37,784 bases of DNA from Granulosicoccus sp. (GTDB taxonomy: Bacteria > Pseudomonadota > Gammaproteobacteria > Granulosicoccales > Granulosicoccaceae). Positions 1,691 through 21,260 of the stretch are shown piece by piece. The notes under the pieces are model-generated. The model did no database searches, was not told the DNA's origin, and saw only the letters and a program-made list of their open reading frames with translations. The stretch lies in contig JALZVU010000151.1 in NCBI GenBank assembly GCA_023301795.1, positions 1 to 37,784 of the forward strand. The letters are read 5' to 3'. Both the position numbers and the translations under genes were made by a program. The stretch's first letter is position 1; the number at the start of each line of letters is the position of its first letter.

Positions 1691-2725
1691 ATGAATGTTC
1701 TGATTATCGGCGCCGCAGGCATGCTCGGGCGTAAATTGAGTCATCAGCTGAATGCGCAGAAAATGTGTGCCGGACAGGCTATTGGGCAGCTGGATCTGGT
1801 TGATGTCGTACCGCCACAGCCACTGGATAGTGCCACATCGGACGATGCCACCGGCAGTGATGCACAAGCGCGCAATGTAGTATCCGCAATCCGTGATCCA
1901 TTAATCATCACTCAAGCTGCCGACCTCACAGCACCCCATGTGGCCCAACAGCTCATCGCTGCGCGCCCCGATGTTATCTACCATCTAGCGGCTATCGTCT
2001 CTGGCGAGGCCGAACAAGACATGGACAAAGGCTACCGGATCAATCTGGATGGCACGCGCGCACTACTCGAAGCCATCCGCAGCGAGCATGAAAAAGACGG
2101 TTATTGCCCCACGTTCATTTTCACCTCATCAATTGCTGTGTACGGTTCACCGTTCCCGGAGACCATCAGCGACGAGTTCCACCTGACCCCGTTAACTAGC
2201 TACGGCACGCAAAAAGCCATGTGTGAGCTGTTGTTGGCCGACTATCATCGGCGCGGCATACTGCTAGGCGTGGGGTTGCGACTACCGACCATTTGCATTC
2301 GACCCGGAAAACCCAACGCAGCAGCATCCAGTTTCTTCTCTGGCATCTTGCGCGAACCTATCAACGGCCAACCCGCTATCCTGCCTGTGGCAGATACTGT
2401 ACGGCACTGGTTTGCCAGTCCGAAAGCGGCCGTTGGATTTCTGATTCACGCAGCAACGCTTACCCGAGAACAAATCGGGCCGCGCTGCAACATGAACCTG
2501 CCAGGGCTGAGCGCTACAGTTGCAGAACAAATAGAGTCGCTGCGCAATGTTGTTGGCAGCGAGGCTGTGGCGCTGATTCGTCGTGAGAATGATCCTGTGG
2601 TTGCAACCATTGTGGCAGGCTGGGCCGAATCATTTGATGCCCAGCGTGCAATGGCACTCGGGTTTGCAGCAGAGAGCTCTTTTGACGACATAATCCAGGT
2701 TTATCTGGATGATGAGATGGCTTGA
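1691..2725 (+). CDS. denD: NAD-dependent epimerase/dehydratase-fold enzyme, D-erythronate dehydrogenase-like
   Basis: A 344-residue extended short-chain dehydrogenase. The N-terminal Rossmann signature GAAGMLG is at residues 7-13, the active-site serines are in FTSSIAVYG (144-152) and the YxxxK pair is Y171/K175 in SYGTQK. Overall pattern, including the RPGKPNAAASSF segment, matches DenD, which oxidises D-erythronate at C2 with NAD in a four-carbon sugar-acid catabolic route. The other genes of that route (a DenTK-type kinase, an isomerase, an aldolase) are not in the window, so the substrate is inferred from similarity only; another sugar-acid or nucleotide-sugar substrate is possible. The start is supported by AAGG at 1679-1682, eight bases before ATG. 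Confidence 0.65.
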   Translation: MNVLIIGAAGMLGRKLSHQLNAQKMCAGQAIGQLDLVDVVPPQPLDSATSDDATGSDAQARNVVSAIRDPLIITQAADLTAPHVAQQLIAARPDVIYHLAAIVSGEAEQDMDKGYRINLDGTRALLEAIRSEHEKDGYCPTFIFTSSIAVYGSPFPETISDEFHLTPLTSYGTQKAMCELLLADYHRRGILLGVGLRLPTICIRPGKPNAAASSFFSGILREPINGQPAILPVADTVRHWFASPKAAVGFLIHAATLTREQIGPRCNMNLPGLSATVAEQIESLRNVVGSEAVALIRRENDPVVATIVAGWAESFDAQRAMALGFAAESSFDDIIQVYLDDEMA

Positions 2726-2844: not shown

Positions 2845-4485
2845 ATGAATCGTAAAACAGCTGTTGTTATCGGCTCAGGCATCGGCGGAATTGCCTGCGG
2901 AATTCGCCTGCAAAGCCTGGGATTTGACACAACCATAATTGAAAAACTGGATTCGCCAGGTGGGCGTGCTCTTGTGCACAGGGCCGAAGGCTTTGTGTTT
3001 GATATGGGCCCCACGGTGCTCACTGTTCCGCATTTCATCGAAGAGCTGTTCGCGCTGGAGCGCGACAAGGCCATGTTAGGGCAGCCCGATTTCCCAGTCG
3101 AGATTCTGGATGAAAGCAAACGTGTAAAAGAGGGCATCAGTGGCGGCCCCCACACCAGCCGATATGTCGAGCTGCGCCCTATCCTGCCTTTCTACCGAAT
3201 TTACTTTCAGGACGGCACTCACTTCGATTACGACTGCGATCCCGAAAACACGCGCAGGCAGATTGCTGAACTTGCCCCCGAAGACGTTGAGGGCTATGAC
3301 CGTTTTCATGCTGCCGCCAAAAAGATTTTTGACCGTGGCTTTATAGAACTGGGTTATACCTATTTTGGCAACGTGTCGGCCATGATGAAAGTCGTGCCTG
3401 ATCTGTTCAAGCTGAATGCCGTGCGCACATTGTTCTCCTTCGTCAAACAGTATTTCAAAAGCGACAAGATGCGCCGAGTGTTCAGTTATGAGACGCTGCT
3501 TATTGGTGGCAATCCGCAAAAGGTACCGGCAATCTACGCCATGATCCATTTTGTAGAGAAAACCTGGGGCGTACATTTTGCCATGGGCGGTACGGGCAAA
3601 CTTGTTGAGGGTTTTGCAAAAAAGTTTGAAGACCTGGGAGGCACAATTCGTTATGGGGTTGAGGTCAACAAGATTGACGTCGAAAAACGTGACGGCAAAT
3701 CAACTGCCACAGGGATCACGCTTGCTACCGGTGAAACACTGAACGCCGATGTTGTGGTCTCCAACTCAGACTACGCCAATACGTATTTGAAGCTAATTGC
3801 ACCGGAGCACCGCAAGATCAACCGGGATTCGCTCGTCAAATTCAGAAAGCAAAGTATGTCGCTGGTAGTTATCTACTTTGGCTATAGTCGACGCGACGAT
3901 GACCCACCGTTGCAGCATCACAACATTGTCCTGGGGCCGCGCTACGAAGAGTTGCTCACTGACATCTTTGAACGCAAAATCCTGTCTGAAGATTTCTCGC
4001 AGTATCTGCACCTCCCCACCATCACTGACCCCAGTCTTGCCCCTGAAGGCCATCATGCAGCCTACACACTGGTGCCGGTGCCCAACAATCTGAGCAAGAT
4101 TGATTGGGAAGAAAAAGGCGATGCCTTTGTCGAAAAGGTATTAACGTCACTGCATACACAAGGGCATATTCCTAATCTGATGGAGCGGATTGTGTATAAG
4201 AAATACATCACGCCTGCGTATTTTGAAAACACCTTGAACGCCTACGTCGGTAACGGTTTTGGCGTAGAACCTGTGCTGGTACAGTCAGCCTACTTTCGCC
4301 CGCATAACCGTAGCGAAGATGTAAAAAACCTGTACCTGGTTGGACAAGGCACGCAACCTGGCGGCGGTACGCCTTCAGTGATGATGTCTGCCAAGATGAC
4401 AGCACGTGTTATTGCAGAAGATTACCGTATTCATACCGACGTAGTTAACGGCGTACCCGACGAACCTGTGCCTGAGAGCGCTTGA
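2845..4485 (+). CDS. CrtI-family FAD-dependent carotenoid desaturase-like oxidoreductase
   Basis: A 546-residue flavoprotein of the phytoene desaturase (CrtI/CrtN) superfamily. The N-terminal dinucleotide-binding motif [13 protein letters not shown] (about 8-20) is followed by an acidic strand end (IIEK) and SPGGRA. The C-terminal family signature [15 protein letters not shown] precedes the last FAD-contacting helix. CrtI enzymes introduce double bonds into C30/C40 isoprenoids at the membrane. No phytoene synthase (crtB), crtE or cyclase is in the window, so the true substrate may be a made-elsewhere carotenoid or another polyprenyl chain. The stop is 6 bp before the ATG of the dehydrogenase gene, so the two are probably one transcript. 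No Shine-Dalgarno is visible upstream of the ATG. Family is confident; reaction is not. Confidence 0.75.
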
Positions 4486-4491
4486 TAGCTG

Positions 4492-5472
4492 ATGCAGGAC
4501 GAGACAACGGCGAATAGCTTCTGGATAAGCAGCGCAGGCAACGGCGAACTCAAACAGTCGCCACTGCCCCCGCCGGCTGATGGTCAGATACGTGTCAAGA
4601 CGCTGTTTACCGGCATCAGCCGCGGAACCGAGACTCTCGTATTTGCTGGGCGAGTGCCCGCGTCCGAACATCAAAGAATGCGCGCACCTTTTCAGGAAGG
4701 GGAATTCAGCTTTCCGGTTAAATACGGATACATCAATGTGGGCCGTGTTGAGCACGGCCCCAAATATCTGCAGAACAAAACGGTATTCAGTCTGTATCCA
4801 CATCAAACTCACTTCAACATTGATGCAGATGCTGTGACCGTACTGCCCGATAATATCCCCGCAGACAGAGCTGTATTAACCGCTAACATGGAAACAGCCA
4901 TCAATGCACTCTGGGATGCCCAACCTCAGATCGGTGACAAAATTAGCGTTGTAGGCGCTGGCGTATTAGGTGCTCTGGTTGCCTATCTTGCATCAGGTAT
5001 CACAGGCTGCGAGGTAGAGCTTGTCGATATTAACAGCCAGCGTGCATCGTTAGCCAAGGACTTGGGCCTTGCGTTTGTTCAGCCCGAAAGGGCCGCAACC
5101 CAACGCGATCTTGTTATTCACACATCGGCCTCGCAAGAAGGGCTTAACACGGCAATCTCACTAGCGGCCTTTGAAGCGACTGTGCTTGAGCTGAGCTGGT
5201 ATGGCAGCAAACAACCGGCGATAAGTCTGGGCGGTGCCTTTCATTCACAACGCCTGCAGATCAAAAGCTCTCAGGTGGGCCATGTAGCAGCGAGCCAACG
5301 AGCACGCTGGAGCTATCAACGCCGATTGCAACTGGCTATGACACAGCTGGCAGATTCTCGACTGGATGTGCTGATCAGTGGCGAGAGCCATTTTTCACAA
5401 TTACCTGAAACACTGACATGGCTGAGTGAGGCAGGCAACACATCGTTGTGTCATAGAATTACGTACGATTAA
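4492..5472 (+). CDS. Medium-chain (zinc-type) alcohol dehydrogenase, BchC-like
   Basis: A 326-residue medium-chain dehydrogenase/reductase. The N-terminal GroES-like part carries TGISRGTET (about 39-47) in place of the usual catalytic-zinc cysteine segment, and no structural-zinc cysteine cluster is visible, so zinc use is doubtful despite the family name. The nucleotide-binding motif is VVGAGVLGALVA, followed by an acidic residue in VELVDIN, which favours NAD(H). The closest pattern I recognise is the BchC/threonine-dehydrogenase-like branch. It lies 6 bp after the desaturase and 26 bp before the PTPS homologue, all on the plus strand, so an operon is likely. It would oxidise or reduce a hydroxyl in the same pathway; the substrate is unknown. 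Confidence 0.7.
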   Translation: MQDETTANSFWISSAGNGELKQSPLPPPADGQIRVKTLFTGISRGTETLVFAGRVPASEHQRMRAPFQEGEFSFPVKYGYINVGRVEHGPKYLQNKTVFSLYPHQTHFNIDADAVTVLPDNIPADRAVLTANMETAINALWDAQPQIGDKISVVGAGVLGALVAYLASGITGCEVELVDINSQRASLAKDLGLAFVQPERAATQRDLVIHTSASQEGLNTAISLAAFEATVLELSWYGSKQPAISLGGAFHSQRLQIKSSQVGHVAASQRARWSYQRRLQLAMTQLADSRLDVLISGESHFSQLPETLTWLSEAGNTSLCHRITYD

Positions 5473-5484
5473 CCATTATTCAAT

Positions 5485-5490
5485 AAGGAG
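5485..5490 (+). promoter_or_regulatory. Strong Shine-Dalgarno (AAGGAG) deciding a TTG start
   Basis: AAGGAG ends eight bases before the TTG at 5499. It fixes the PTPS homologue at TTG rather than the internal ATG at 5529, which would cut off the first beta strand. It is one of the best ribosome binding sites in this part of the window. Confidence 0.75.
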
Positions 5491-5498
5491 ATTTTCAC

Positions 5499-5903
5499 TT
5501 GTACAGTCTTAACGTTAGAGAACATTTCATGATCGCCCACAGCTTCAAGGGCGAGGTGTTTGGACCTGCACAAGGCCTGCATGGAGCAACCTACATTGTT
5601 GATCTGGAAATGCGCCGCAAAGAGCTGGATGATGATGCTCTAGTGGTGGATATCGGCCTGGCAAGTCAGTCACTGGCCGCAGTACTAGCCGACCTGAACT
5701 ACAAGAATTTGGACGCCGTACCTGAGTTCACCGGTAAAAACACCACCACAGAATTTCTTGCAGCCGTAATCTACGAACGCATTGAAGCCAAGATTGCTGC
5801 CGGTGATCTGGGCGGTGCGGCTAAGGGTCTGGATGCGTTGAAGGTGACACTGCATGAGTCACATGTTGCATGGGCAGCCTACGAACGCGATCTTAATATT
5901 TAG
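5499..5903 (+). CDS. 6-pyruvoyltetrahydropterin synthase / QueD homologue with altered active site
   Basis: A 134-residue T-fold protein, close to the family length. Conserved features are H14 in MIAHSF, H28 in GLHGA, D51 in VVDIG, NTTTE (81-85) matching the family NPTSE, and E120. Compared with E. coli QueD, several key positions differ: the catalytic cysteine four residues before the second histidine is A24, the third zinc histidine (LHGH) is A30, and the catalytic Asp-His pair (LDHH) is N67-Y68. An added HESHVAW block (119-125) could supply new ligands. It is therefore unlikely to make 6-pyruvoyl- or 6-carboxytetrahydropterin by the standard mechanism. From memory the same GPAQxLHGAT signature occurs in a Streptomyces PTPS homologue next to a GTP cyclohydrolase II gene. 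Start is TTG with a strong ribosome site. Confidence 0.85.
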
Positions 5904-5988: not shown

Positions 5989-7074
5989 ATGAGTCAGCAA
6001 CATGTCACGCTCGTCTATCCGGGAGATCTGAATACCCGCACTGGCGGATATCTCTACGACAAGAAAATTGTTGAGGGCCTGCGCAGCTCTTCCGGCAACA
6101 CAGGTAAGTGGCAGGTATCACTTGTCTCTTTGAATGGAGACTATCCGTTTCCCAGTGATGCTCACTTAACAGCGGCCAATGCTGCGTTTGCTGCAATAGC
6201 TGACAATAGCCTTGTTGTTGTCGACGGACTGGCCTATAGCGTGATGCCCGATGTGGTTGCACAGCATGCAAAACGATTACGGCTGATTGCGCTCATCCAT
6301 CATCCACTTGCACTGGAGACTGGCTTGTCAGACACTCAGTCGCAAGCGCTGGAACAACTGGAAACCGAGGCGCTGAAACATGCACATCACATCATTACCA
6401 CCAGTGTGCTAACAGCCAATTCGCTGAGCACTTACGGCGTGCCTGCGAGTAAAGTTACCGCTGTTCTACCAGGTACCGACAGCGCACCGCTGGCAATGCA
6501 ACAAAAGACGGCTGATTTCAATTTACTCTGCGTGGCAACGCTAACACCGCGTAAGGCTCACAACGTTCTGTTTGATGCACTGGCAACGTTAACCGAGCTG
6601 CCGTGGCACTTTTACTGCGTGGGTAGTCCTGATCGTGATGTTCCTACTGCGCAGGCTTTATTAGCACAGCGCACAGCACTCGGACTGGAAGAACGTATCA
6701 CTTTCATCGGTGAGCTAGACGACACCGAGCTGGAATCGTACTACCACCAGGCCAACCTTTTCGTACTCAGTTCCTATCATGAGGGCTACGGCATGGTGCT
6801 ATCTGAAGCCATTGCACGTGGGCTACCCATTGTCTGCTCGAACGCCGGGGCCATGCCCTTCACCGTACCCGACGGTGCTGGACTGCTGGTGCCACCAGGC
6901 AATGCTCAGGAACTTAGCGCAGCACTAAAGATTTTCATGACAGATGCAACGTTACGAGAGCAGTTAATAAAGACGGCTGTGAAAGCCCGTGATCATCTTC
7001 CCGACTGGCAATCAGCGGCTGATAGTTTCGCCACAGTGCTTGTCAACATAAGTAAAGAGACATCCCTAGCATGA
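5989..7074 (+). CDS. GT4-family glycosyltransferase
   Basis: About 361 residues with the GT-B architecture. The N-terminal acceptor half begins VTLVYPGDLNTRTGGYLYD, where the Gly-Gly loop is typical of GT4. The C-terminal donor half contains CVATLTPRKAHNVL, FIGELDD and the nucleotide-sugar motif HEGYGMVLSEA with the E-x7-E pair. Such enzymes transfer a sugar from a nucleotide-sugar with retention of configuration. I chose ATG 5989; an in-frame TTG at 5977 is the alternative, and neither has a clear ribosome site. The gene follows the PTPS homologue by 85 bp and overlaps the methyltransferase through ATGA, so translation is likely coupled. Its acceptor is presumably the cluster product. Confidence 0.83.
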   Translation: MSQQHVTLVYPGDLNTRTGGYLYDKKIVEGLRSSSGNTGKWQVSLVSLNGDYPFPSDAHLTAANAAFAAIADNSLVVVDGLAYSVMPDVVAQHAKRLRLIALIHHPLALETGLSDTQSQALEQLETEALKHAHHIITTSVLTANSLSTYGVPASKVTAVLPGTDSAPLAMQQKTADFNLLCVATLTPRKAHNVLFDALATLTELPWHFYCVGSPDRDVPTAQALLAQRTALGLEERITFIGELDDTELESYYHQANLFVLSSYHEGYGMVLSEAIARGLPIVCSNAGAMPFTVPDGAGLLVPPGNAQELSAALKIFMTDATLREQLIKTAVKARDHLPDWQSAADSFATVLVNISKETSLA

Positions 7075-7964
7075 GCCAGTCTGATCAGATATCTGAGACC
7101 AATGAAGGGTTTTCAGAAACGTGGCTAAGCCTGCGTGAACCTGCAGATCACGCAGCTCGCAGTCAATCGCTGGATAAACAGCTTGCTGCATGGGCCGAAC
7201 AACACAGCGAATTGTCTGTTGTGGAGTTGGGTGCTGGTACCGGATCAAACCTGCGCTACCTGATGCCGCAGCTTGGCCACCACCAGCATTGGCACCTGCT
7301 GGATTACGATGCCAATCTGTTAAGTCACTTGCCCAGAATTCTTGCACCGTGGGCCGAGGCGCAACAGGCAAACATCAATGTGCAAGACGATAAACTACAC
7401 ATCGAACACAGCAACTTCAGTGCAACCGTATCAACTCAGGTTATTAACCTGGCCGAAGAGCTTCATCAAATTGCCATGGATGACGTCAACCTGATCACAG
7501 CTTCTGCCTTGCTTGATCTGACATCAGCAGTGTGGCTGGATCAACTGGCAACGCTTACCATACAGAACAATTGCGCGTGCCTGTTTGCACTCAATTACAA
7601 TGGCAAGATTCATTGGCAGCCTGTGCTTGAAGCCGATGCAAAAGTGAGTGTGCAACTGAACGAGCATCAACTTAACGACAAAGGTTTTGGCAAAGCACTG
7701 GGACCAGAGGCAGGCCACTATTTTGCTCAAGCACTTGAGACACAAGGCAGACACGTTTCAAAGGAGATAAGCAACTGGGTGATAGAACCGCAGTCGCAAG
7801 CTCTTCAACATGCCATCGTTGATGGCTGGGCACCGGCAGCTACCGAGCAGGACAACAACGCAGCTGCCGTCATAGAGCAATGGCGCGTATCAAGAAAACA
7901 GGCGATTGATGAAAAAACGTCCAGCCTTACGGTTGGCCACGTGGATGTGTTGTCTATGCCGTAG
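7071..7964 (+). CDS. Class I SAM-dependent methyltransferase
   Basis: A 297-residue protein. Motif I is VVELGAGTGS at residues 50-59, followed by an acidic strand end in WHLLDYD that would hold the SAM ribose. Motifs further on are less typical and I cannot name the acceptor. Its ATG overlaps the glycosyltransferase stop (ATGA at 7071-7074), a sign of translational coupling and of a shared pathway. It ends 41 bp from the convergent RibD-like gene, with no convincing terminator in the gap. O- or N-methylation of the sugar or heterocycle made by the cluster is the obvious but unproven role. Confidence 0.78.
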   Translation: MSQSDQISETNEGFSETWLSLREPADHAARSQSLDKQLAAWAEQHSELSVVELGAGTGSNLRYLMPQLGHHQHWHLLDYDANLLSHLPRILAPWAEAQQANINVQDDKLHIEHSNFSATVSTQVINLAEELHQIAMDDVNLITASALLDLTSAVWLDQLATLTIQNNCACLFALNYNGKIHWQPVLEADAKVSVQLNEHQLNDKGFGKALGPEAGHYFAQALETQGRHVSKEISNWVIEPQSQALQHAIVDGWAPAATEQDNNAAAVIEQWRVSRKQAIDEKTSSLTVGHVDVLSMP

Positions 7965-8005: not shown

Positions 8006-9061
8006 CTAAAAAATCCGCTTTACTGACGGTTGCGGCTTGGGCAGGGTACCGCGCGCATCGGTGGCCATTTCTGCATCGCCGGCCAAACCGGTGTCAGACT
8101 TTGCAACACTGACATCAAAGTCCCAGAGAATATCTTCACCCATCTGGTACATAGCAAACGGTGGACGGTGCGCATCTGCCAGCACATCAATACCAGGGAG
8201 CTGCAACGCACCAATACCCTTTCCCGCCAACAACGGAGCTACAGCGATGTGCAATCTATCCAGCACATCAGCCCTATAGAACCTGCTCACCGTAATTCCA
8301 CCACCTTCGATGAACAAACGTTGCAGGCCACGCTCAGCTAACAGATCGATGATTGCCTGCACGTTAAGTTGCTCATCAGTATTCGGCACCACCCAACGTT
8401 CGACCTGATGGGAAGAACTGCCCTGCTCGTTTTTCAGTTGTGGCCCGAATGCCAAGGCACGTTCGCCAAGATCTGCTGACGACTGATGAATAAGGATGGT
8501 TTTGGCTTGTCCGTCATCGAATATCCCTAACGGTTGGTGTATTCGCGCTTGAGAATCAATCACTACACGCACAGGGTTCTTGCCAGCCACTGCGCGAGTC
8601 GTCAGCTGCGGGTTGTCAGCCATCGCTGTTCCTGCACCCACGATGACGGCATCGCTCAGGGCACGCAGGCAGTGCAGGTGCTTACGATTTTCTTCGCCGG
8701 TGACATAAAACGAGTCGCCACTGCGAGCCGCAATTTGAGCATCAATGCTCTGCCCCAGATGCGCCACTGTTCGCAGGCTTTTATCAGTGCCACCCAACAC
8801 AGGCAGATACAAATCGAACATGGCGTGGAAAATAGCTGGAATTTGCGGAGAACGACACCATTGGTCATTAGAATCCAACCATAAACAGCTGTTGTCACTT
8901 AAAACTTCTGATGCCACAACCCGCTGCATTTGACGATCAAATGTCAGAAAAGGCGCATGACGAGCGTCTGGTGCCTCCAATAGATTTCTCGCTGCAAGCA
9001 AGAATTGCCAGGCGAGCTTTTCAGCGTTTGAGTACGACAATGTTGAAAGCGATTCGATCAT
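8006..9061 (-). CDS. RibD C-terminal-type pyrimidine reductase (dihydrofolate reductase fold), no deaminase domain
   Basis: A 351-residue protein with the RibD reductase domain at about residues 97-325. The substrate/NADPH motifs are LGQSIDAQIA (102-111), VTGEENRKHLHCLRA (120-134), VGAGTAMADNPQLTTR (141-156) and LFIEGGG, followed by APLLAGKGIG. In riboflavin synthesis this domain reduces the ribosyl chain of an aminopyrimidine phosphate with NADPH. The N-terminal deaminase domain of bifunctional RibD (HxE, PCxxxxxxPPC) is absent; instead there is an unrecognised region of about 95 residues and a 25-residue tail. It is divergent from the GTP cyclohydrolase II gene across 405 bp. Together they could make a 2,5-diamino-6-ribitylaminopyrimidinone without deamination. 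Confidence 0.85.
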   Translation of the reverse strand: MIESLSTLSYSNAEKLAWQFLLAARNLLEAPDARHAPFLTFDRQMQRVVASEVLSDNSCLWLDSNDQWCRSPQIPAIFHAMFDLYLPVLGGTDKSLRTVAHLGQSIDAQIAARSGDSFYVTGEENRKHLHCLRALSDAVIVGAGTAMADNPQLTTRAVAGKNPVRVVIDSQARIHQPLGIFDDGQAKTILIHQSSADLGERALAFGPQLKNEQGSSSHQVERWVVPNTDEQLNVQAIIDLLAERGLQRLFIEGGGITVSRFYRADVLDRLHIAVAPLLAGKGIGALQLPGIDVLADAHRPPFAMYQMGEDILWDFDVSVAKSDTGLAGDAEMATDARGTLPKPQPSVKRIF

Positions 9062-9466
9062 GCCTGTTTGATATGAATACCTTGTCTCTAGTTTGAACTA
9101 TTCATGAATGAAGGTGATCGAACGAATCGGCGTTATTCATCATTCAATAACCAGGTGCAGCCCGACAATCTGCTCATACCGACTTCACGGGCTAATTTAC
9201 GACGTTCGATGACATGTTTGACGCCTCTTTAAAGGGGACAGTACTAGCCACGCTGTATTACCGTTTATACAGATCCTGACGATTTGGAACAAAGCGCAGG
9301 CTGGAACCCACTTCACAGAAGCCGAACAATCCACTGTTTTCGACGGCTACTCTGCGACAGGCAGCACCTTACTGCACTAAACCGTGCGAGCGGCTTGTCA
9401 GGCTGGGTTGGCCTGAGTAGATACAATTGACGTATATAACCTAAATTGAAAAAGACCGACAGCACC
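9062..9466. promoter_or_regulatory. Divergent regulatory region between RibD-like reductase and GTP cyclohydrolase II genes
   Basis: These 405 bp hold no supported gene. Visible symmetric elements are a 10-bp palindrome ATTCATGAAT (9100-9109), an inverted repeat GTTATT-N8-AATAAC (9132-9151) and a hairpin TCAGGC-N7-GCCTGA (9398-9416). A TATAAC at 9435-9440 could be a -10 for the rightward gene but lacks a good -35. I looked for an FMN riboswitch (RFN element) and do not see its conserved blocks. Confidence 0.45.
9132..9151. promoter_or_regulatory. Candidate operator, inverted repeat GTTATT-N8-AATAAC
   Basis: Six-base perfect arms around an eight-base spacer, 71 bp upstream of the RibD-like start in the divergent region. 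The size and symmetry suit a dimeric regulator, but no regulator gene is nearby and chance cannot be excluded. Confidence 0.3.
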
Positions 9467-10681
9467 ATGATCAAGGACCCATCAGGCGAATACAACCGTT
9501 CCGACGCGCATATTGATGCAGAGCGTTGTATTGCTGAATTGCAACGTGGCAGGGCCGTGGCGCTCACCAATGACTCTGAAGGTCATCGCAATATGCAAGG
9601 ATCCCATCGCGTGATCCAGCTCATCGAGACGATTGATAGCAACTCACTCGAGGAGCTGATCAGCGTGCACAACTGCCAGCTTGTTCTCTCTCGCGCCAGA
9701 GCGCAAACACTGGATCTGCTGGTCGACAGCAGCGCCGTCTGCCTGGAGCTGGCGCCCGATACCGCCGCGCAGACTCTCTACGCCTGGGCCGGACTCAGCC
9801 CTGATGCGCACACAAATCACCAGCCAGATGCGGTCGGTGAACATTCTGCGCACGCTTCTGAATTTATTGGAGGCGTAGGTGCGGCTTCTGGCGCTGAATC
9901 CGGAGTACTGCCTGAAAGCCACACTACCAGCATCCAGTTTGCTAACGCGGCGCTGAATCTTGCCCACAGCGCTCATGCTCTGCCTGCATTCATTATGTAC
10001 GCTGTAGATGAGGTGCCTGCCAATCTTCTGGCCGTGAATGTTCTCACTGCAACAACGTATGCAGATCAAGGCGGCGAGCTCATTGTATTAAGCAGCGCCC
10101 GCATACCATTGGCCTCTGCGGAAAGCGTAGAGCTGACTGTTTTCCGAGAACGCCATGGCATTGCTGAACACGTCGCTATCAAAGTCGGCGAACCTGACTT
10201 TTCCAACACGGTGACCGTCAGGCTCCACTCGTCATGCTTCACAGGCGATATCCTTGGCAGCATGAAATGCGACTGTGGCGAGCAACTCCAACGCGCAATA
10301 TCCACAATGGCCGAAGGTGATGGCGGCGTGGTTCTTTATGTGTCACAAGAAGGTCGTGGCATTGGCCTGGCGAGCAAATTACTGGCTTATCAGCTCCAAG
10401 ATCAGGGTCTTGATACTATCGAGGCTAACCAGCACTTGGGGTTTGGCTCCGATGAAAGGCGCTATCCGGCAGCTGTTACCATGCTTGAGCAACTGGGCAT
10501 CAACACCATTCATTTGATGACAAACAACCCGCTTAAAATTGAGGCATTGCGCCAGCACGGTGTTAACGTCGTTAGTCGAGTTCCGTCGCCGGCAACCGTC
10601 AACGTGCACAATGCCCGGTATCTGGAGACCAAACGCGAACGCGCAGGCCACCTGAGTACGTGCGATTCCTCTACCGCATGA
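9467..10681 (+). CDS. ribA: GTP cyclohydrolase II with degenerate N-terminal DHBP-synthase-like domain
   Basis: About 404 residues (ATG 9467; an in-frame TTG at 9446 is possible). The C-terminal 200 residues are a complete GTP cyclohydrolase II: zinc cysteines C257, C268 and C270 in SSCFTGDILGSMKCDCG, then QEGRGIGL, AYQLQDQG and TNNPLKIEAL. It opens GTP to a diaminopyrimidinone ribosyl phosphate, releasing formate and pyrophosphate. The tyrosine in AYQLQ, equivalent to E. coli Tyr105, is kept; in a Streptomyces paralogue a methionine here leaves the formyl group on. The N-terminal 200 residues follow the DHBP synthase frame (ELQRGRAVALTND) but lack its acidic DxxREnEGD cluster, so DHBP synthase activity is not expected. 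The same layout is known to me from alphaproteobacterial RibA. The next gene starts inside the stop (ATGA). Confidence 0.88.
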   Translation: MIKDPSGEYNRSDAHIDAERCIAELQRGRAVALTNDSEGHRNMQGSHRVIQLIETIDSNSLEELISVHNCQLVLSRARAQTLDLLVDSSAVCLELAPDTAAQTLYAWAGLSPDAHTNHQPDAVGEHSAHASEFIGGVGAASGAESGVLPESHTTSIQFANAALNLAHSAHALPAFIMYAVDEVPANLLAVNVLTATTYADQGGELIVLSSARIPLASAESVELTVFRERHGIAEHVAIKVGEPDFSNTVTVRLHSSCFTGDILGSMKCDCGEQLQRAISTMAEGDGGVVLYVSQEGRGIGLASKLLAYQLQDQGLDTIEANQHLGFGSDERRYPAAVTMLEQLGINTIHLMTNNPLKIEALRQHGVNVVSRVPSPATVNVHNARYLETKRERAGHLSTCDSSTA

Positions 10682-11466
10682 GTTTACTCGCAGCCATAAG
10701 CATTGCGCCACTGCCCTCACAGGCACCACGCGGCGCACTCAATTGCCTGGCCATTGCCAGTGCGGTGCTTATTGCAGCACTTACAACACTGTACCTGCAA
10801 CATCCATCATTCAGTCTGGCAGGCGTAGTAGGTTCCTCGATCGTCTGGCTAGTGATTGCCGCCATCATCTGGCGCTCATTGGCCCATCATCCACATTCGC
10901 AGTTCGGTCAAGCCAACATGGTTACCACGGCACGGGCTGTGTCAACGGCACTGCTGGCAGGATTTATTCCGGTTGCCGAACAGATCAGCTCACCGATCTG
11001 GCTGTGGGTTATCGCCATCACTGCCACCATCACCTTGTGTATGGATGGGCTTGACGGCTATCTTGCTAGAAAAACAGGGCTTTCATCAGCATTTGGTGCC
11101 CGTTTTGATATGGAAACCGATGCCTTGCTAGCGTTAGTGATTACATTATTTTTATGGCAATCCCAGAAGCTTGGCATCTGGGTGCTTGGGCTAGGCGTTA
11201 TGCGTTATGCCTTCCTGGCGACAGCACACTGGTGTGCGCCATTGCGAGCACCGCTCTACCCTTCATCACGAAGAAAAACGGTTTGCGTCATACAGGTGGG
11301 AGCATTGTGTCTAATGCTCTGCCCCTGGCTTTCCGCCGACCAGGCTGTTGTAGTCGGCACGCTTGCATTGCTATCGCTTAGCTTTTCTTTTGCCGTTGAT
11401 GTCTGGTGGCTGCTACGCCAATCTTCAGTAAATGAACCAGCAGCCATTACTAAGCCCGAGGCTTGA
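10678..11466 (+). CDS. CDP-alcohol phosphatidyltransferase family membrane protein
   Basis: About 262 residues. I start at ATG 10678 because it overlaps the GTP cyclohydrolase II stop as ATGA; an upstream in-frame GTG at 10660 is possible. The family motif DGxxAR-x8-GxxxDxxxD is complete: D123, D126, G127, A130, R131, G140, D144 and D148 (DGLDGYLAR then GARFDMETD), and NMVTTAR precedes it. Six or so hydrophobic helices surround it. These integral membrane enzymes displace CMP from a CDP-alcohol, usually CDP-diacylglycerol, with an alcohol or sugar phosphate. Translational coupling to a GTP cyclohydrolase II is odd for phospholipid metabolism and suggests that a product of this cluster becomes phospholipid-linked. 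The 3' end overlaps the convergent flippase-like gene by 17 bp. Confidence 0.83.
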   Translation: MSLLAAISIAPLPSQAPRGALNCLAIASAVLIAALTTLYLQHPSFSLAGVVGSSIVWLVIAAIIWRSLAHHPHSQFGQANMVTTARAVSTALLAGFIPVAEQISSPIWLWVIAITATITLCMDGLDGYLARKTGLSSAFGARFDMETDALLALVITLFLWQSQKLGIWVLGLGVMRYAFLATAHWCAPLRAPLYPSSRRKTVCVIQVGALCLMLCPWLSADQAVVVGTLALLSLSFSFAVDVWWLLRQSSVNEPAAITKPEA

Positions 11467-12403
11467 ACACAAGAAACACAAGACCCGGCAAACATCCCAA
11501 CAACGACACCAGTGCATAGATAACGCTGGTGGCAATTCCTGCCTCTGAGCTCAAGCCTGCAATTGGCCACAGAATGGCGGCCGATGCCTCTCGGATGCCC
11601 CAGCCACCTATCGAGAGTGGAATAAGCATACTGAGCAGCACCAACGGCACTAGAGTTACCACCGCTGACAGACTCAACGGAGCTTGCACAGCATAGGAGC
11701 TGAACAGAAACACCAGCATGTAGCTGATGACTATGGCCAAGCTGAGCGTACCTTGAACAAGCCACTGCCTGTCTGACCACCACGCCACATGAAACGCAGG
11801 GCCAAAATCCAGAACCGTGCGGGTAATCCAGTCAGGTGCAAAACGGATGATAACGTAGATAGAAAAAGCTGCCAATACCACTAAACCCATAGTGACACTC
11901 AATACGCGCATGCCGAACTCAGGAACACCTGAGCGCATGAATATGGGCCACATCAGCCACCCGACAATGGCGATCACTAACAACGCAAGCTGGCCGGCTA
12001 ATCGCTCTAACACCACTGCGTGTACCGCCACACTGAGCGTTTTTGTCTCACGGTTCCGATACACCCTGGCAGCGTCCCCGGTTACCCCACCAGGCAAGCT
12101 GAGATTGGCAAAGGTGGCCAGATAATATTCAACAATCGCTCTGCTGGTGCTCAGATGCTGACCCAGCCGGTTGGCCGTCACCTTCCAGCGAATCGCCGAC
12201 AGGATAACTTGAACCTGCACAACGACAAACGCTGGCAACAGCCAGCGCCAGTCAGTTTGCTTGAGCTGCTCCAAAGCCTTGCCCATATCAATGAACCACG
12301 CAACCCCCACGAGAATGGCAATGGCCGCGCTGACTCTGAGAAATCGGGTGAGTCTGGGCGGGAAGCGTTTTAGCAAACCCGCCAAAGCGTGATGGCGCGG
12401 CAT
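11450..12403 (-). CDS. UPF0104 / lysylphosphatidylglycerol-synthase TM-domain (flippase-like) protein
   Basis: About 317 residues with about eight transmembrane helices. The family pattern is visible in DWRWLLPAFVVVQVQV, SAIRWKV, NLSLPGGVTGDAARVYR and ERLAGQLALLV. The frame stays open to an ATG at 12502, but ATG 12403 (MPRHHALAGL) fits the family N-terminus and avoids overlap with the YceI gene. The same fold forms the flippase part of MprF and is found in many envelope glycolipid clusters, where it is thought to move lipid-linked products across the inner membrane. Placed next to a CDP-alcohol transferase and downstream of a glycosyltransferase, it is the natural exporter candidate here. It follows yceI by 28 bp on the minus strand. 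Confidence 0.78.
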   Translation of the reverse strand: MPRHHALAGLLKRFPPRLTRFLRVSAAIAILVGVAWFIDMGKALEQLKQTDWRWLLPAFVVVQVQVILSAIRWKVTANRLGQHLSTSRAIVEYYLATFANLSLPGGVTGDAARVYRNRETKTLSVAVHAVVLERLAGQLALLVIAIVGWLMWPIFMRSGVPEFGMRVLSVTMGLVVLAAFSIYVIIRFAPDWITRTVLDFGPAFHVAWWSDRQWLVQGTLSLAIVISYMLVFLFSSYAVQAPLSLSAVVTLVPLVLLSMLIPLSIGGWGIREASAAILWPIAGLSSEAGIATSVIYALVSLLGCLPGLVFLVFKPRA

Positions 12404-12431
12404 GGCCGACGAACAGCAGGCTAGACTCAGA

Positions 12432-13034
12432 TTATTTGTCTTGTATTGCTTCGGTTTCAATAATGAGCTGAACAGCATCACCCACAAGCGCATTGGCCAC
12501 ACCGTAGGTCATACCGTATTCGCTTCTATCCAGCTCGGCCGAAGCTGAAACACCCAATGTAAAGCGCTTGTGCCCAAACGGGTATTTGTCGGCCTTGTTC
12601 AATTGCACGCTCAGCACCAATGGCTGGGTGGTGCCTAGCAGGCTAAGCTCACCGGTAATTTCGCCCGCGCCGGTATCGTCGATGGTTGCGGATTGTGCAG
12701 TAAACGTCATCTGGGGGTGCTTTTTGACACTCAGAAAATCCTTGCTCTTCACGTGTTTGTCACGTGCATCATTTGCGGTATTGACGCTTGCTGTAGCCAC
12801 ATCAATCGTCATATCACTGACCGTATTGGTTTGTTCATCAAAGCTGAATGAGCCGGACACGTCAGTAAACCAGCCCAGTGTCTTGGCAAAGCCAATGTGA
12901 TCGATCATAAAAGCCACGGTGGTGTGCGCCGGGTCGAGCGTGTAGCGCTCTGCAGCAGCAACAACGGCGGACACACTTGCCAGCAATGAGACACTAACTG
13001 CAAGCACAGCGGCGGTAATTTTTTTCTTGAACAT
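12432..13034 (-). CDS. YceI-family periplasmic lipocalin-like protein
   Basis: About 200 residues. ATG 13034 (MFKKK) is preferred to an upstream in-frame ATG because GGAG stands five bases before it and it gives a clean signal peptide (positively charged start, hydrophobic core, cleavage near VVAAAE). The mature protein has the YceI pattern: YTLDPAHTTVAFMIDHIGFAKTLGWF, then DISV-type strands, KSKDFLSVKKHPQMTF and a final GDAVQLIIE strand. Keyed motif segments are at residues 30-52 and 95-112. YceI proteins are periplasmic beta-barrel binders; one structurally solved member holds a polyprenyl chain. That is suggestive next to a CrtI-like desaturase and a flippase-like protein, but ligand binding here is inference. 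It probably shares a transcript with the flippase-like gene. Confidence 0.85.
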   Translation of the reverse strand: MFKKKITAAVLAVSVSLLASVSAVVAAAERYTLDPAHTTVAFMIDHIGFAKTLGWFTDVSGSFSFDEQTNTVSDMTIDVATASVNTANDARDKHVKSKDFLSVKKHPQMTFTAQSATIDDTGAGEITGELSLLGTTQPLVLSVQLNKADKYPFGHKRFTLGVSASAELDRSEYGMTYGVANALVGDAVQLIIETEAIQDK

Positions 13035-16687: not shown

Positions 16688-17620
16688 CTACGTGCGCCGC
16701 GCACCGTGATACAGATTAACCACGTGGCGGGCTTCGGCAAAAAACAACCATCGCTCAACAAATACACCTGCATAGGCACTTATTGCCGCCAGCACCAGAG
16801 TACCCAAACCAACATTTCCCAAAAGGCCTGTCACTAGCACTATAGGCAACACAAAGGCCAGCCCAATACTGATAAATCGAAGCCAGATCAACTTTGCTCT
16901 GGCTACCTGAAACCCGAATTCCTTGGTATGAAATGTATCGCTGGCATGGCCCACATCAAGCAGCTTCACCGTTGCTCTGGTAAACCCTAATGCCGTATTG
17001 ATACTGGGCCCAGCGGGTTGTCCTATCCAATAGTAATAAACAATTTTAACGAGTGCTGCCACCACAAGAATCACCGACGCCAGCCCTAGCAAACGACCCA
17101 CATCCAATCCTTGCTGAGCAAACATCACAGCCAGAATAAGCGCACCCACAAGCAAACCCAGGAGCACATAGTTAACCGGCGTGAGCGGCGTATGCCATTG
17201 GCGAATGGTTTTCAACGAAGCATAAATCATAGCCGTGCATACCAGAATGACAAGCGCCATCACCGCCATGAGAACAGCGAAAAAAGCAGTAGTTGTTGAG
17301 TTACCGGTAAAAAATTCAAACGCAAGCCAGATAATACTTACCGGATAGAACAACACGGCAAACACCGCCTCACGTGATAGCCATGATGTTTTAAAGCGCG
17401 TAAACGAGCGCCATGCGTTTTTGGGATTGGCCAGATGAAACGTGGATGAAATGAGGCCAGCAGTGACAAGCACAAGCCCCACGATGCCCATTGAGGTAAT
17501 TTGATCAGGGCTGATAGAACCAGAAAGATTAGCCAGATTCGCAAAAGCCAGAATAAACAGCAGACCGTATCCGGCACCTGCAGTCACCGTAAAAAAGATG
17601 ACAGAAATAGCCGGGTGCAT
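16688..17620 (-). CDS. soeC: Sulfite dehydrogenase membrane anchor, DmsC/NrfD-type
   Basis: A 310-residue protein with about eight transmembrane helices. The start HPAISVIFFTVTAGAGYGL and the segment STFHLANPKNAWRSFTRFKTSW are typical of the DmsC-type anchor family, which takes up or donates electrons at a quinone site and holds a molybdoenzyme on the inner membrane. The ATG overlaps the soeB stop (TAATG at 17618-17622). Order A-B-C and the subtype of the catalytic subunit identify it as SoeC, the quinone-reducing subunit. It differs from NrfD in length and helix number as far as can be judged by eye. Confidence 0.8.
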   Translation of the reverse strand: MHPAISVIFFTVTAGAGYGLLFILAFANLANLSGSISPDQITSMGIVGLVLVTAGLISSTFHLANPKNAWRSFTRFKTSWLSREAVFAVLFYPVSIIWLAFEFFTGNSTTTAFFAVLMAVMALVILVCTAMIYASLKTIRQWHTPLTPVNYVLLGLLVGALILAVMFAQQGLDVGRLLGLASVILVVAALVKIVYYYWIGQPAGPSINTALGFTRATVKLLDVGHASDTFHTKEFGFQVARAKLIWLRFISIGLAFVLPIVLVTGLLGNVGLGTLVLAAISAYAGVFVERWLFFAEARHVVNLYHGARRT

Positions 17621-18345
17621 TAGCGCGCCCCCTTGCCAAGATCATTGAACGCATCTTTCTGGCGCTTCATCCATTTTCCAATGAGTGATGCACTAGAGCC
17701 ACCTTCTTTCTTTTCAACAGTCGGTGCTGGCGGACGCTGGCGAGGTGGCAGGTATTTGTTGACAGGGTTATAACCAACTTCAGGCATCATTGAATAGCCG
17801 CTGCGCTCACGCACCAACGTGCTCACTTGTGAGTTGGGGTCGTCAAAGTCTCCAAAAAACCGCGCGCTCGTTGGACACGTCATGACACAAACCGGCTTCC
17901 GTTCTTCCTTGGGCAAGTTCTCGTCATAGATACGATCAACACACAGCGTGCATTTCTTCATCACGCCCTGATCTTCGTCCAGCTCACGAGCACCGTACGG
18001 ACAAGCCCATGCACATAGATTACAGCCCATGCATTTGCTTTGATCTACCAGCACAATGCCGTCCTCTTCGCGCTTGTACGACGCACCCGTGGGGCAAACT
18101 GTAACGCACGCTGCATCATCACAATGCATGCATGACATAGGCGCGTTTACAGTCTTGTTGTTCGGATATTCGTCTACTTCATAGTGGCGAATGCGATTGA
18201 ACCAGACACCACTTGGCTGCTCGCCGTAGGGGTCGTAATCGGTTAACGGGCCAGTAGTACCCGACGTATTCCACTGCTTACAGGCAACGGCGCACGCGTG
18301 ACAACCCACGCAAGTATCAAGATCAATGACCAGACCGAGCTTCAT
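17620..18345 (-). CDS. soeB: Sulfite dehydrogenase iron-sulfur subunit (four-cluster ferredoxin)
   Basis: A 241-residue protein of the DmsB/NrfC type. Four sets of cysteines for four [4Fe-4S] clusters are seen: CVGCHACAVACK (15-26), CMHCDDAACVTVCPTG, CMGCNLCAWACPYG and, split, CTLC with CVMTCPTS. It wires electrons from the molybdenum site of SoeA to the membrane anchor. There is no Tat or Sec signal, so the complex faces the cytosol. The ATG overlaps the soeA stop (ATGA at 18342-18345) and its stop overlaps the soeC start, giving a fully coupled three-gene unit. The last 40 residues are charged and rich in proline and lysine, with no cluster motif. Confidence 0.85.
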   Translation of the reverse strand: MKLGLVIDLDTCVGCHACAVACKQWNTSGTTGPLTDYDPYGEQPSGVWFNRIRHYEVDEYPNNKTVNAPMSCMHCDDAACVTVCPTGASYKREEDGIVLVDQSKCMGCNLCAWACPYGARELDEDQGVMKKCTLCVDRIYDENLPKEERKPVCVMTCPTSARFFGDFDDPNSQVSTLVRERSGYSMMPEVGYNPVNKYLPPRQRPPAPTVEKKEGGSSASLIGKWMKRQKDAFNDLGKGAR

Positions 18346-21260
18346 CGCTTGTCTCCGCTGTTAAGGTGTCCGCGCTTTAGTGCGTCCTCCATAGATCGTT
18401 CCAGATTTATGGGGGTATGAGTGTGGTACGTCAGCGTTTCAGCCGACGCTTTCATACCAGGCAATCGCTTGATGGTATCGAACTCTGGGTAGGTGCCTGT
18501 CTCGCCCGGCGCCGCCAGATAGACATTCACTTTCAAGTCGTACCACGCCGCCTGACCTGTTACCGGATCAGAATTAGTTAATCCGCGCTCGCCTTCTTTG
18601 GGGGGTAGCAATTCAGATATCAGGTGATTGACCAGAAAGCCCTTCTGCGACTCGGGAGCATCTTTCGAAAGACCCCAGGCCCCGCTTTGCTTACCAATGG
18701 CATTCCATGTCCAAACGGTGTCAGGGTTGCAGCCTTCCATTAGTTTCAGCTGGCAGCGGATCTTGCCATGATGGCTCTCTACCCATACCCACGAGAGATC
18801 AGGAATGCCCATCTGCTCACCACGCTCACGGTTCATGTACAGATAGTTTTGCGCCATGATTTGACGTAGCCATGCGTTCTGGGAATCCCAGGAGTGATAC
18901 ATGAACATGGGCCGCTGATTAATCGCGTGAAAACCGTATTTGTCGTTATCAACGCGCTGTTCTTCCAACGGCACATACCAGTCTGGCAACGGATCAAAAT
19001 ACTTCACCAGACGCTCCTTGTCTTCGTCATGGGTTGGTAGAGGCCCGTCATACAGCCCTTGACCCGCCAGACGAAACTTCTGCAACACCTCGGAATACAG
19101 CTCCATGACAATGGGGCCGCTGTGCCCATTAAAGCCAACACTCTTGGCCCATTCCAGATAATCCTTGTTGGCAAAGCGATAGTAGTGTTGTTCAGGCGGT
19201 AACTTGTGTTCGAAAAAGCAATCGTTATCCATGTAGGCTTGCCACTGATCCTGATTGGGCGCACCCACCATGTGCTCATCACCGTTCTCACCACGCCAGC
19301 CAGCGAGAAAACCAATACCCGGAGCCTTCTCAAAGTTCGTGATGAAGTCTTTGTAATCGCTGAATTTAGCGGAACCATCAGGCTTGGTCAGCGCTGGAAA
19401 TTTAAGGCGTGACCCGATGTCCACCAGCACCTCCTGCCAGGCACGAACATCACGGTCTATTTCAATCACTGGCTGACGGATGGAATCACAGGCTGCGTGT
19501 GGCTCAGAGATAGGCCTGTCGAGCATGGAGATGGTGTCGAAACGCTCGAGAAAAGTAGTGTCAGGTAAAACAAGATCCGAGAAGTTAACCATTTCAGAGT
19601 GAAACGCATCGCTGGTGACAATGAACGGCAACTTGTAGTCGCCATGCTCATCTTTCTCGCGCAGCATGTCCTGAATTTCAGCAGTGTTCATGCTGGAATT
19701 CCATGCCATGTTAGCCATGAACAGAATTAGCGTGTCAATAGGATAAGGGTCACCCTTAACCGCATTGTTGATAACCATGTGCATCATGCCGTGAGCAGCA
19801 ATCGGCGCCTCCCACGAGTAGGCTTTGTCGATACGCAGTGGCTCACCATTGTCATCTACCACCAGATCCTCAGGCCCCATGGGAAAACCCAACGGAGGAG
19901 ACGCCAGCGGGGTGTTCGGTGCCATCGCCTTCGCAGGCTTTATTGGCGGCGCTATATGTTTGGGAAACGGCGGCTTGGCCAGGTGCGATCCGGGGCAGTC
20001 CACAGCACCCAGCATTATTTGCAGCAAATGAATTGAACGGCACGTCTGAAACCCGTTGGAATGGGCAGAGATGCCGCGCATGGCGTGCATGGCCACGGGC
20101 CGACCAATAAATTTATCGTGCTTACGCCCCGTCCAGTCTGTCCATGGCGTATCGATAGTGATGGTTTCCTTGAACGCCACATGCGCCATTTCCAGCGCCA
20201 GGCGTTCGATTGTTGCAGCATCAATACCGACGGTACCGGCAACCGCCTCTGGTGCGTACTCGTCACTCAGGTATTTCTCAGCCAACAGCGTCATCACGGT
20301 TTTAACGTTGACCCCGTCTACCTCAAAATCCCCAAATAACGCTGCTTCAATGTCATCGTTGTGGGCTGAATCGTTCCAGCTGGCTGTGCTATCAGTGGCC
20401 TGATCCCAGATCAGTAGCTCACCTTCCTCATCACGCAGCAACAAGCCATCTTTAGACGTACCTGGTGCATTGATGACCAGTTGTGTTGAATTGGTGTAGC
20501 GAGTCAGGAAATCCCAATCGAACTGCTCGTTCTTAAGCAACACATGGGCAAACGACAATGCCAGCAATCCATCAGTGCCCGGACGGATGCCAATCCATTC
20601 ATCGGCAATGGCCTGATAACCAGTACGCACCGGATTGATGGCAACAAACTTGGCACCGCGACGCTTGAGTTTTTCCAGACCAATCTTTATCGGGTTTGAT
20701 GCGTGATCTTCAGCAACACCCCACAGCATAAAATACTTGGCGTGGTCCCAATCCGGATCACCAAACTCCCAGAACGACTGGCCAGTCATGTAAAGGCCGC
20801 CAGCGGCCATGTTCACCGAACAGAAACCACCGTGAGCGGCCCAGTTTATGGTGCCAAACTGCGATGCCCAGAAACCTGTCAGAGCCTGCATCTGGTCACG
20901 ACCCGTGAAAAAAGCCAGACGCTTGGGGTCTGTTTCACGAATTCGGCGCAGGCGCTCGGTAAGTAACTCCAGCGCCTTGTCCCACGAAATGGGCTCAAAT
21001 TCGCCTGCCCCACGCTCGGTTCCGGGCTTTCGCACCAGCGGCTGGGTTAGCTTGGCCGGAGACTTCTGCTTCATGATGCCCGCGTTACCTTTCGCGCAGA
21101 GCACACCTTTATTAACCGGATGCTTGGGGTTACCCTGAATGAAGCGTATTTCGTTGCCTTCCAGCGTCACTTTTATGCCACAGCGACAGGCGCACATGTA
21201 GCAAGTGGTAGTTTTGACCGTTTGCTGGTCATGATTTTCGAATTCTGGCAGTGCTGACAT
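18342..21260 (-). CDS. soeA: Cytoplasmic sulfite dehydrogenase molybdopterin subunit
   Basis: A 972-residue member of the DMSO-reductase family. The N-terminal [4Fe-4S] site is C20, C23, C27 and C55 (CYMCACRC, then GVLCAKG). Conserved stretches include AFFTGRDQMQALTGFW, HGGFCSVNMAAGG near the molybdenum site, HDKFIGRPVAMHAMRGISAH, MANMAWNSSMNT and DLVLPDTTFLERFD. These match the SoeA subgroup, which oxidises cytosolic sulfite to sulfate and passes electrons to quinone, rather than DmsA or PsrA. The lack of a twin-arginine signal agrees with a cytosolic Soe complex. Other sulfur-oxidation genes (sox, dsr, apr) are not in the window, so sulfite may come from organosulfonate or thiosulfate breakdown encoded elsewhere. 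Identification is by pattern recall and should be confirmed by phylogeny. Confidence 0.82.
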   Translation of the reverse strand: MSALPEFENHDQQTVKTTTCYMCACRCGIKVTLEGNEIRFIQGNPKHPVNKGVLCAKGNAGIMKQKSPAKLTQPLVRKPGTERGAGEFEPISWDKALELLTERLRRIRETDPKRLAFFTGRDQMQALTGFWASQFGTINWAAHGGFCSVNMAAGGLYMTGQSFWEFGDPDWDHAKYFMLWGVAEDHASNPIKIGLEKLKRRGAKFVAINPVRTGYQAIADEWIGIRPGTDGLLALSFAHVLLKNEQFDWDFLTRYTNSTQLVINAPGTSKDGLLLRDEEGELLIWDQATDSTASWNDSAHNDDIEAALFGDFEVDGVNVKTVMTLLAEKYLSDEYAPEAVAGTVGIDAATIERLALEMAHVAFKETITIDTPWTDWTGRKHDKFIGRPVAMHAMRGISAHSNGFQTCRSIHLLQIMLGAVDCPGSHLAKPPFPKHIAPPIKPAKAMAPNTPLASPPLGFPMGPEDLVVDDNGEPLRIDKAYSWEAPIAAHGMMHMVINNAVKGDPYPIDTLILFMANMAWNSSMNTAEIQDMLREKDEHGDYKLPFIVTSDAFHSEMVNFSDLVLPDTTFLERFDTISMLDRPISEPHAACDSIRQPVIEIDRDVRAWQEVLVDIGSRLKFPALTKPDGSAKFSDYKDFITNFEKAPGIGFLAGWRGENGDEHMVGAPNQDQWQAYMDNDCFFEHKLPPEQHYYRFANKDYLEWAKSVGFNGHSGPIVMELYSEVLQKFRLAGQGLYDGPLPTHDEDKERLVKYFDPLPDWYVPLEEQRVDNDKYGFHAINQRPMFMYHSWDSQNAWLRQIMAQNYLYMNRERGEQMGIPDLSWVWVESHHGKIRCQLKLMEGCNPDTVWTWNAIGKQSGAWGLSKDAPESQKGFLVNHLISELLPPKEGERGLTNSDPVTGQAAWYDLKVNVYLAAPGETGTYPEFDTIKRLPGMKASAETLTYHTHTPINLERSMEDALKRGHLNSGDKR

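Follow-up and report, generated by a model that had tools for sequence, protein, structure and literature searches.

A PTPS-IV protein without the catalytic residues of QueD and the gene cassette around it in Granulosicoccus and other bacteria

The window analysed in the present work, a stretch of 37,784 nucleotides of Granulosicoccus DNA, contains a gene whose product is almost certainly a member of PTPS-IV, the SCO6650 clade of the PTPS proteins. The protein is of a kind already described, with a solved relative, and the gene is ordinary for its subfamily. What is new is comparative: a cassette of neighbouring genes that is wider than in the account of PTPS-IV given in the portion of PMC5445326 consulted, and evidence from sequence searches that, in most of the carriers examined, argues against a role in F420 synthesis or as QueD. 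The most far-reaching interpretation of these results, to which a probability of roughly 0.3 is assigned, is that PTPS-IV acts independently of zinc on a ribitylamino-pyrimidine, or on a pterin derived from one, in an undescribed GTP pathway of Proteobacteria, Actinobacteria and Gemmatimonadota, whose product would be a pterin-like compound that is methylated, glycosylated and linked to the membrane.

Subfamily, fold and active site of the protein

When the sequence is re-read, the open reading frame has the coordinates, frame and residue numbering that an earlier note on this DNA had given it, running on the forward strand from a TTG start at 5499 to a stop codon at 5901-5903 and encoding 134 amino acids, and the ribosome-binding site claimed for it is indeed present 8 nucleotides ahead of the TTG (Table 1). 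Membership of the PTPS superfamily, with its T-fold, is indicated by the Pfam PF01242 profile (85.5 bits against a cut-off of 22.4, E 3.6e-24), by an AlphaFold2 model with a mean pLDDT of 94.5, and by a Foldseek TM score of 0.95 between this model and the PDB chain 3d7j_A. The protein scores 40.3 bits with the QueD NCBIfam model TIGR03367, below the curated cut-off of 89.25, and 33.9 bits with the 6PTHBS subfamily NCBIfam model, below the cut-off of 125.5; in an alignment of relatives, each of the 49 members matches this pair of models alone at E 0.001. The motifs of the other PTPS subfamilies are absent from the window protein. Where PTPS-I (QueD) has CxxxHGH, it reads A24-Q-G-L-H-G-A30; the CxxxxxHGH of PTPS-II is excluded by the lack of a Cys anywhere in the 134 residues; and the ExxHGH of PTPS-III is not found, with Q25 at the Glu position and HGA for HGH.

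The portion of PMC5445326 consulted describes PTPS-IV as a subfamily of COG0720 (cluster-node 62, 561 sequences) with the signature FGPAQ, and with neighbours that include PF00925 (GTP cyclohydrolase II, written FolE2 there) and PF01872 (RibD_C). All of these are found in the window too, the signature as F21-G22-P23-A24-Q25 and the two neighbours at 9446-10681 and 8006-9061 respectively. The unusual single gene that the earlier note had implied is thus a member of a described subfamily, for which the structure 3D7J was released in 2008.

A phmmer search of the PDB identifies 3d7j_A, the structure of SCO6650 from Streptomyces coelicolor (E 6.7e-51), which is 62% identical to the window protein, shares its T-fold and its FGPAQ, HGA, LNY and HESHVAW stretches, and has the same residues at every questioned position. 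The model superposes on this chain with an rmsd of 1.0 Å and a Z score of 23.1 over 132 residues, in agreement with the earlier statement that the fold is intact, and no difference between the two proteins that is relevant to mechanism was found; the next structural matches are ordinary PTPS and QueD chains, with Z of about 14-16. In the paper devoted to it, SCO6650 is said to have neither an active-site zinc nor the catalytic triad, and to show no PTPS activity. Other T-fold enzymes, namely DHNA, FolX, QueF and uricase, work without zinc and bind a purine or pterin through a Glu. These metal-free families share the fold class of the window protein as distant matches (Z about 8-10, 4-18% identity), and the zinc-dependent GTP cyclohydrolase I is matched too (Z about 8); the distant match to the metal-free families is no indication of function.

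The comparison of the window protein with E. coli QueD requires that the residues which are retained be separated from those which are lost. In the alignment, H14, H28 and E120 are the counterparts of His16, His31 and Glu110 in QueD, with which the protein also shares its fold. Unlike QueD, it lacks the Cys, the third zinc His and the Asp-His pair, since A24, A30 and N67-Y68 replace Cys27, His33 and Asp70-His71, as the earlier note had proposed. The conservation of these positions was evaluated in an alignment of 89 distinct PTPS-IV sequences and 20 other PTPS sequences. H14, A24, H28, A30 and E120 are each invariant in the 89 PTPS-IV sequences, so that both the retention of the three canonical residues and the two Ala substitutions extend to the whole set. 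Further residues are fixed in PTPS-IV: R7, H9, M11, D72 and W125 occur in 89/89, and S121 and H122 in 88/89. Tyr68 itself is not a feature, because its position is merely hydrophobic (Y in 38, F in 26 and L in 24 of the 89). The canonical set varies as well: the 20 other PTPS sequences have HGH in every case, but the Cys in 16, the Asp in 15, the His of the pair in 18 and the Glu in 14, so that HGH alone is constant among them. The alignment of homologues that the earlier note had set as a check therefore gives substitutions that are clade-wide. The candidate explanation that the missing residues are supplied at shifted positions was rejected, since the HG of HGH falls in the same column in the 89 PTPS-IV and the 20 other sequences and there is no replacement Cys.

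The HESHVAW stretch had been described as a new block. It is not new as a segment, because it aligns to the canonical strand that bears Glu110; in PTPS-IV, an insertion of some 11 residues (G102-D112) directly precedes it. The proposal that H119 completes a zinc site fails, because this position has His in just 47 of the 89 sequences (and Asn in 29), and H119 is for this reason no general metal ligand. A zinc site could also have been rebuilt with H122 or H9 in place of A30, in which case a PTPS-like reaction would proceed with other acid-base residues. The presence of H14, H28 and H9 in 89/89 sequences and of H122 in 88/89 is favourable to such a site, but SCO6650 has the same residues and is reportedly without active-site zinc or PTPS activity, H119 is unconserved, and the counterparts of the Cys and of the Asp-His pair are gone, so that a rebuilt site is considered improbable.

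The loss of canonical residues might alternatively be an artefact of gene decay. This was ruled out, in accord with the earlier judgement that decay is unlikely, by the fixation of A24 and A30 in 89/89 relatives, by the intact predicted fold (mean pLDDT 94.5), and by the ratio of substitution rates. Between the window gene and L002, the relative nearest to it, dN is 0.115 and dS 1.26, and between L002 and L003 the values are 0.020 and 0.66; among the nine pairs that involve the window gene, dS is unusable in two by NG86 and in five by YN00. The PTPS-IV gene is under purifying selection, with dN/dS near 0.1.

Table 1. Features of the PTPS-IV gene and of the surrounding cassette, in positions of the window
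Feature	Position	Strand	Evidence
MDR-type dehydrogenase without GHE zinc motif, distant BchC resemblance, cassette member	4492..5472	+	PF00107 E 1.1e-5, below cut-off
Ribosome-binding site AAGGAG	5485..5490	+	ends 8 nt before PTPS-IV start; direct sequence
PTPS-IV protein (SCO6650 clade), 134 aa, TTG start	5499..5903	+	PF01242 E 3.6e-24; 3d7j_A E 6.7e-51
FGPAQ signature codons F21-Q25, A24 at place of catalytic Cys	5559..5573	+	F 89, G 89, P 88, A 89, Q 87 (n=89)
H28-G29-A30 codons (HGA for HGH, one zinc His lost)	5580..5588	+	H, G, A each 89/89; HGH 20/20 other PTPS
N67-Y68 codons (Asp-His pair lost)	5697..5702	+	N67 82/89; position 68 Y38 F26 L24
HESHVAW codons (119-125), retained Glu120	5853..5873	+	E120 89, H122 88, W125 89, H119 47 (n=89)
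GT4 glycosyltransferase, cassette member, start uncertain	5989..7074	+	PF00534 E 2e-31
Class I methyltransferase-like protein, start overlaps GT4 stop	7071..7964	+	PF08242 E 9.5e-6, below cut-off; VELGAGTG motif
RibD-like reductase, RibD_C domain, no deaminase domain found	8006..9061	-	PF01872 E 3.7e-35, sole Pfam match at E 0.001
GTP cyclohydrolase II with retained zinc cysteines and catalytic Tyr; start uncertain	9446..10681	+	PF00925 E 1.4e-53
CDP-alcohol phosphatidyltransferase, motif intact, start uncertain	10660..11466	+	PF01066 E 1e-15; DGLDGYLARKTGLSSAFGARFDMETD
Flippase-like membrane protein (LPG_synthase_TM), a possible and less constant member	11450..12502	-	PF03706 E 3.5e-40

The gene cassette and its distribution

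The genes that surround PTPS-IV in the window encode proteins in which the characteristic motifs that were sought are intact, namely the CDP-alcohol motif, the zinc cysteines of GTP cyclohydrolase II (GCHII), the glycine motif of the methyltransferase and the nucleotide motif of the MDR dehydrogenase. The last of these reaches 45 bits with the bchC model (cut-off 291), and the GHE zinc motif was looked for in it and is absent. The GCHII has C, C, C, Y, D and R at the positions of E. coli RibA residues 54, 65, 67, 105, 126 and 128. Besides the cassette reductase, the genome has a second RibD_C protein on another contig (C277), and at least two RibD_C proteins occur in 16 of the 18 genomes searched. 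One GCHII was found in the window genome; a second may sit in an assembly gap, because contig C277 ends 0.9 kb from the ordinary RibD. A promoter and terminator scan gave counts at the shuffled level, and no operon boundary is therefore claimed.

The constancy of the cassette was evaluated in a scan of species genomes that yielded 123 relatives, of which the best 80 are used for all counts of loci out of 80 given here. Of these loci, 79 contain the MDR dehydrogenase, 76 the GT4, 74 the methyltransferase, 62 the RibD-like reductase and 55 the CDP-alcohol transferase, while 12 contain GCHII and 9 the flippase-like protein. The profiles were made from the window neighbours and their hits and were thus built from the same loci that were counted. 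No cassette family member occurs in 14 control loci around QueC, which at 8.9-14 kb are shorter than the majority of PTPS-IV loci. Where MDR, PTPS, GT4 and methyltransferase are all present (79 loci), their order and strand are the same in 78. Among the 56 loci of at least 18 kb the five-gene core, which consists of these four and the RibD-like gene, is complete in 49, and GCHII is present in 9 of the 56. The larger gene set is not obligatory beside PTPS-IV, because two Halochromatium loci with full flanks (L054 and L064) have the MDR and PTPS-IV genes alone.

A draw of 60 genomes, 11 of them with a match, supplied nine actinobacterial loci, which were analysed in the same terms: they contain the MDR gene in 9, GT4 in 9, the CDP-alcohol transferase in 7, the methyltransferase, the flippase-like gene and GCHII in 6 each, and the RibD-like gene in 4. 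The RibD-like protein is accordingly not found in every actinobacterial locus; in L170, the 316-residue open reading frame that separates GCHII from the flippase-like gene matched no family. The 18 linked GCHII proteins other than that of the window have the catalytic Tyr in 14 cases, Met in 3 and Leu in 1, and the four without Tyr all belong to actinobacterial loci (L043, L170, L171, L173). The first intermediate may consequently differ between groups. SCO6655, the GCHII linked to SCO6650, reportedly has Met in place of the catalytic Tyr, a position at which the window enzyme has Tyr. A formyl product (FAPy) was considered for the window enzyme and rejected, since this Met-for-Tyr replacement is absent from the window and present in 3 of the 18 linked proteins. 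In the literature SCO6655 is listed as a GTP cyclohydrolase II.

The distribution of PTPS-IV itself is patchy. Of the 19 genomes in the window's genus, 11 have a match; the figure for its family is 12 of 40, where the twelfth match is 44% identical. The cassette pathway looks dispensable, or accessory, given this patchiness in the genus. A search of one open-access library for the cassette as such returned no paper, and the MDR, GT4, methyltransferase, CDP-alcohol transferase and flippase-like members are not named in the account of PTPS-IV in the portion of PMC5445326 consulted.

Several other genes were observed near the cassette. A large protein with a marginal Sulfatase match (26.7 bits against a cut-off of 25) lies about 2.6 kb upstream in many loci, for example at L042:5925-8177 (-); it occurs near the CDP-alcohol transferase and may be part of the cassette pathway. 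In 25 of the best 80 loci, a member of its family is found no more than 6 kb from PTPS-IV. YceI occurs in 35 of these 80 loci; both families are frequent, and neither is claimed as a member. Directly upstream of the cassette in the window, at 2845-4485 (+), lies a CrtI-family phytoene desaturase gene (530 bits), which is probably unrelated because it occurs in 1 of the 80 loci. The window also contains an NAD-dependent epimerase family gene at 1691-2725 (+), with 361 bits for the NCBIfam D-erythronate dehydrogenase model (cut-off 325), and three consecutive open reading frames at 16688-21260 (-) that, judged by reading alone, resemble a molybdopterin oxidoreductase, a ferredoxin subunit with four clusters and a membrane anchor subunit.

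Candidate functions of PTPS-IV

The retained Glu of PTPS and QueD anchors the 2-amino-4-oxo end of a pterin. If GCHII and a reductase are present and a deaminase is absent, then a 2-amino-4-oxo ring would persist, and PTPS-IV could plausibly bind such a pyrimidine or pterin because the Glu that anchors this ring is kept. The chances that PTPS-IV has an enzymatic role in a GTP-derived cassette pathway are judged to be about even, and by analogy with other T-fold enzymes its action would most likely be independent of zinc. The protein would then have given up the Cys-Asp-His triad and one of the three zinc His residues while keeping the anchoring Glu. In the pathway envisaged, GTP would be opened by the cassette GCHII, where one is present; the RibD-like reductase, which is without a deaminase, would convert the ribosyl to a ribityl group and leave the 2-amino group in place; Glu120 would allow PTPS-IV to hold the aminopyrimidine or a pterin derived from it; modification of the side chain would fall to the MDR dehydrogenase, the methyltransferase and the GT4; and the product would be attached or moved at the membrane by the CDP-alcohol transferase and the flippase-like protein. 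The order of the steps and the product are guesses, though the combination of sugar transfer, methylation, oxidation and a CDP-alcohol step in the predicted gene functions suggests that the product would be decorated and perhaps membrane-linked. It counts against this pathway that GCHII lies nearby in only 12 of the best 80 loci; elsewhere it would be provided by riboflavin synthesis, or the pathway would start differently. A changed reaction or substrate, to which the earlier note had pointed, fits the gene neighbourhood and the reported lack of PTPS activity in SCO6650.

It must also be considered whether PTPS-IV is a catalyst at all. It may instead be a non-catalytic pterin- or pyrimidine-binding protein, which would serve the cassette enzymes as a carrier, sensor or subunit and would need just the anchoring Glu. 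The absence of the catalytic Cys and of one zinc His from 89/89 sequences in which Glu120 is fixed is consistent with such a role, as is the adjacency of the MDR and PTPS-IV genes even where the other genes are missing (L054 and L064), but the conservation of R7, H9 and D72 (89 of 89) and of S121 and H122 (88), in addition to H14 and H28, seemingly exceeds what the binding of a ring requires. A purely binding function is thus regarded as rather unlikely, and the zinc-independent enzyme remains the reading preferred here.

The early steps to the F420 chromophore resemble the functions of GCHII and RibD-like proteins, and the cassette partners of PTPS-IV would to this extent suit a role in cofactor F420 synthesis. 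Such a role was tested through CofD in 40 genomes, which comprise the window's own genome and those of 39 of the best 80 loci. CofD-family matches occur in 4 of them, which favours the role where they are found, but the other 36, including the window's own genome, have none. The search reaches distant CofD members, since E. coli is among the 10 of 14 control genomes that it matched. The statement that PTPS-IV acts in F420 synthesis is made from unpublished data in the part of PMC5041015 consulted (section 7), and it counts for the role; in view of the CofD result, an F420 function is nevertheless very improbable. The assignment to PTPS-IV stands, because F420 is a stated role of the subfamily and not a sequence criterion for it.

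The replacement of QueD by PTPS-IV in the synthesis of preQ0 and queuosine was considered as well. In 14 of the 40 PTPS-IV genomes, full-length QueC is present and PTPS-IV is the sole PTPS, and no PTPS-like open reading frame was found in the 14 QueC regions of these genomes. A sample of 100 genomes of one family (that of G016) allows a comparison with QueC genomes without PTPS-IV: any other PTPS is absent from 5 of 6 genomes with PTPS-IV and QueC, versus 28 of the 78 that carry QueC but not PTPS-IV (Fisher p 0.03, without control for kinship). The latter figure also implies that QueC can occur without QueD independently of PTPS-IV. In the window genome, PTPS-IV is the one PTPS, but the QueC match is partial, covering 58 of 210 positions in a 642-residue frame at 25.7 bits (Pfam cut-off 22); the Granulosicoccus genomes G001-G003 are without any QueC match; and CxxxHGH is absent from the window protein. 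QueC without QueD is a wider puzzle for which PTPS-IV does not account. The replacement of QueD by the window protein is given a minimal chance, slighter even than that of F420, although PTPS-IV may still act as QueD in the lineages of the 14 genomes.

Two observations on PTPS proteins in these genomes may be recorded separately. The 28 QueC genomes mentioned above have no PF01242 match, and another protein may make the substrate of QueE in them, or their pathway may differ. In addition, some genomes have three PTPS/QueD domains fused in one open reading frame of about 370-430 residues (L091:1117-2409 (-), L093:86-1228 (+), L092, L096 and L097), which in certain cases adjoins QueC (e.g. G025 C57). 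In the five that were read, HGH is present in each domain, and the Cys ahead of it in 5/5 middle, 1/5 first and 0/5 third domains.

These results provide a structure that was solved without a known chemistry with a multi-gene neighbourhood common to several phyla, whose partners can now be tested. For most of the genomes searched, the CofD result argues against F420, which is the sole statement of a function for PTPS-IV that was found in print. Should the pathway exist, it would yield a new metabolite derived from a pterin or a pyrimidine.
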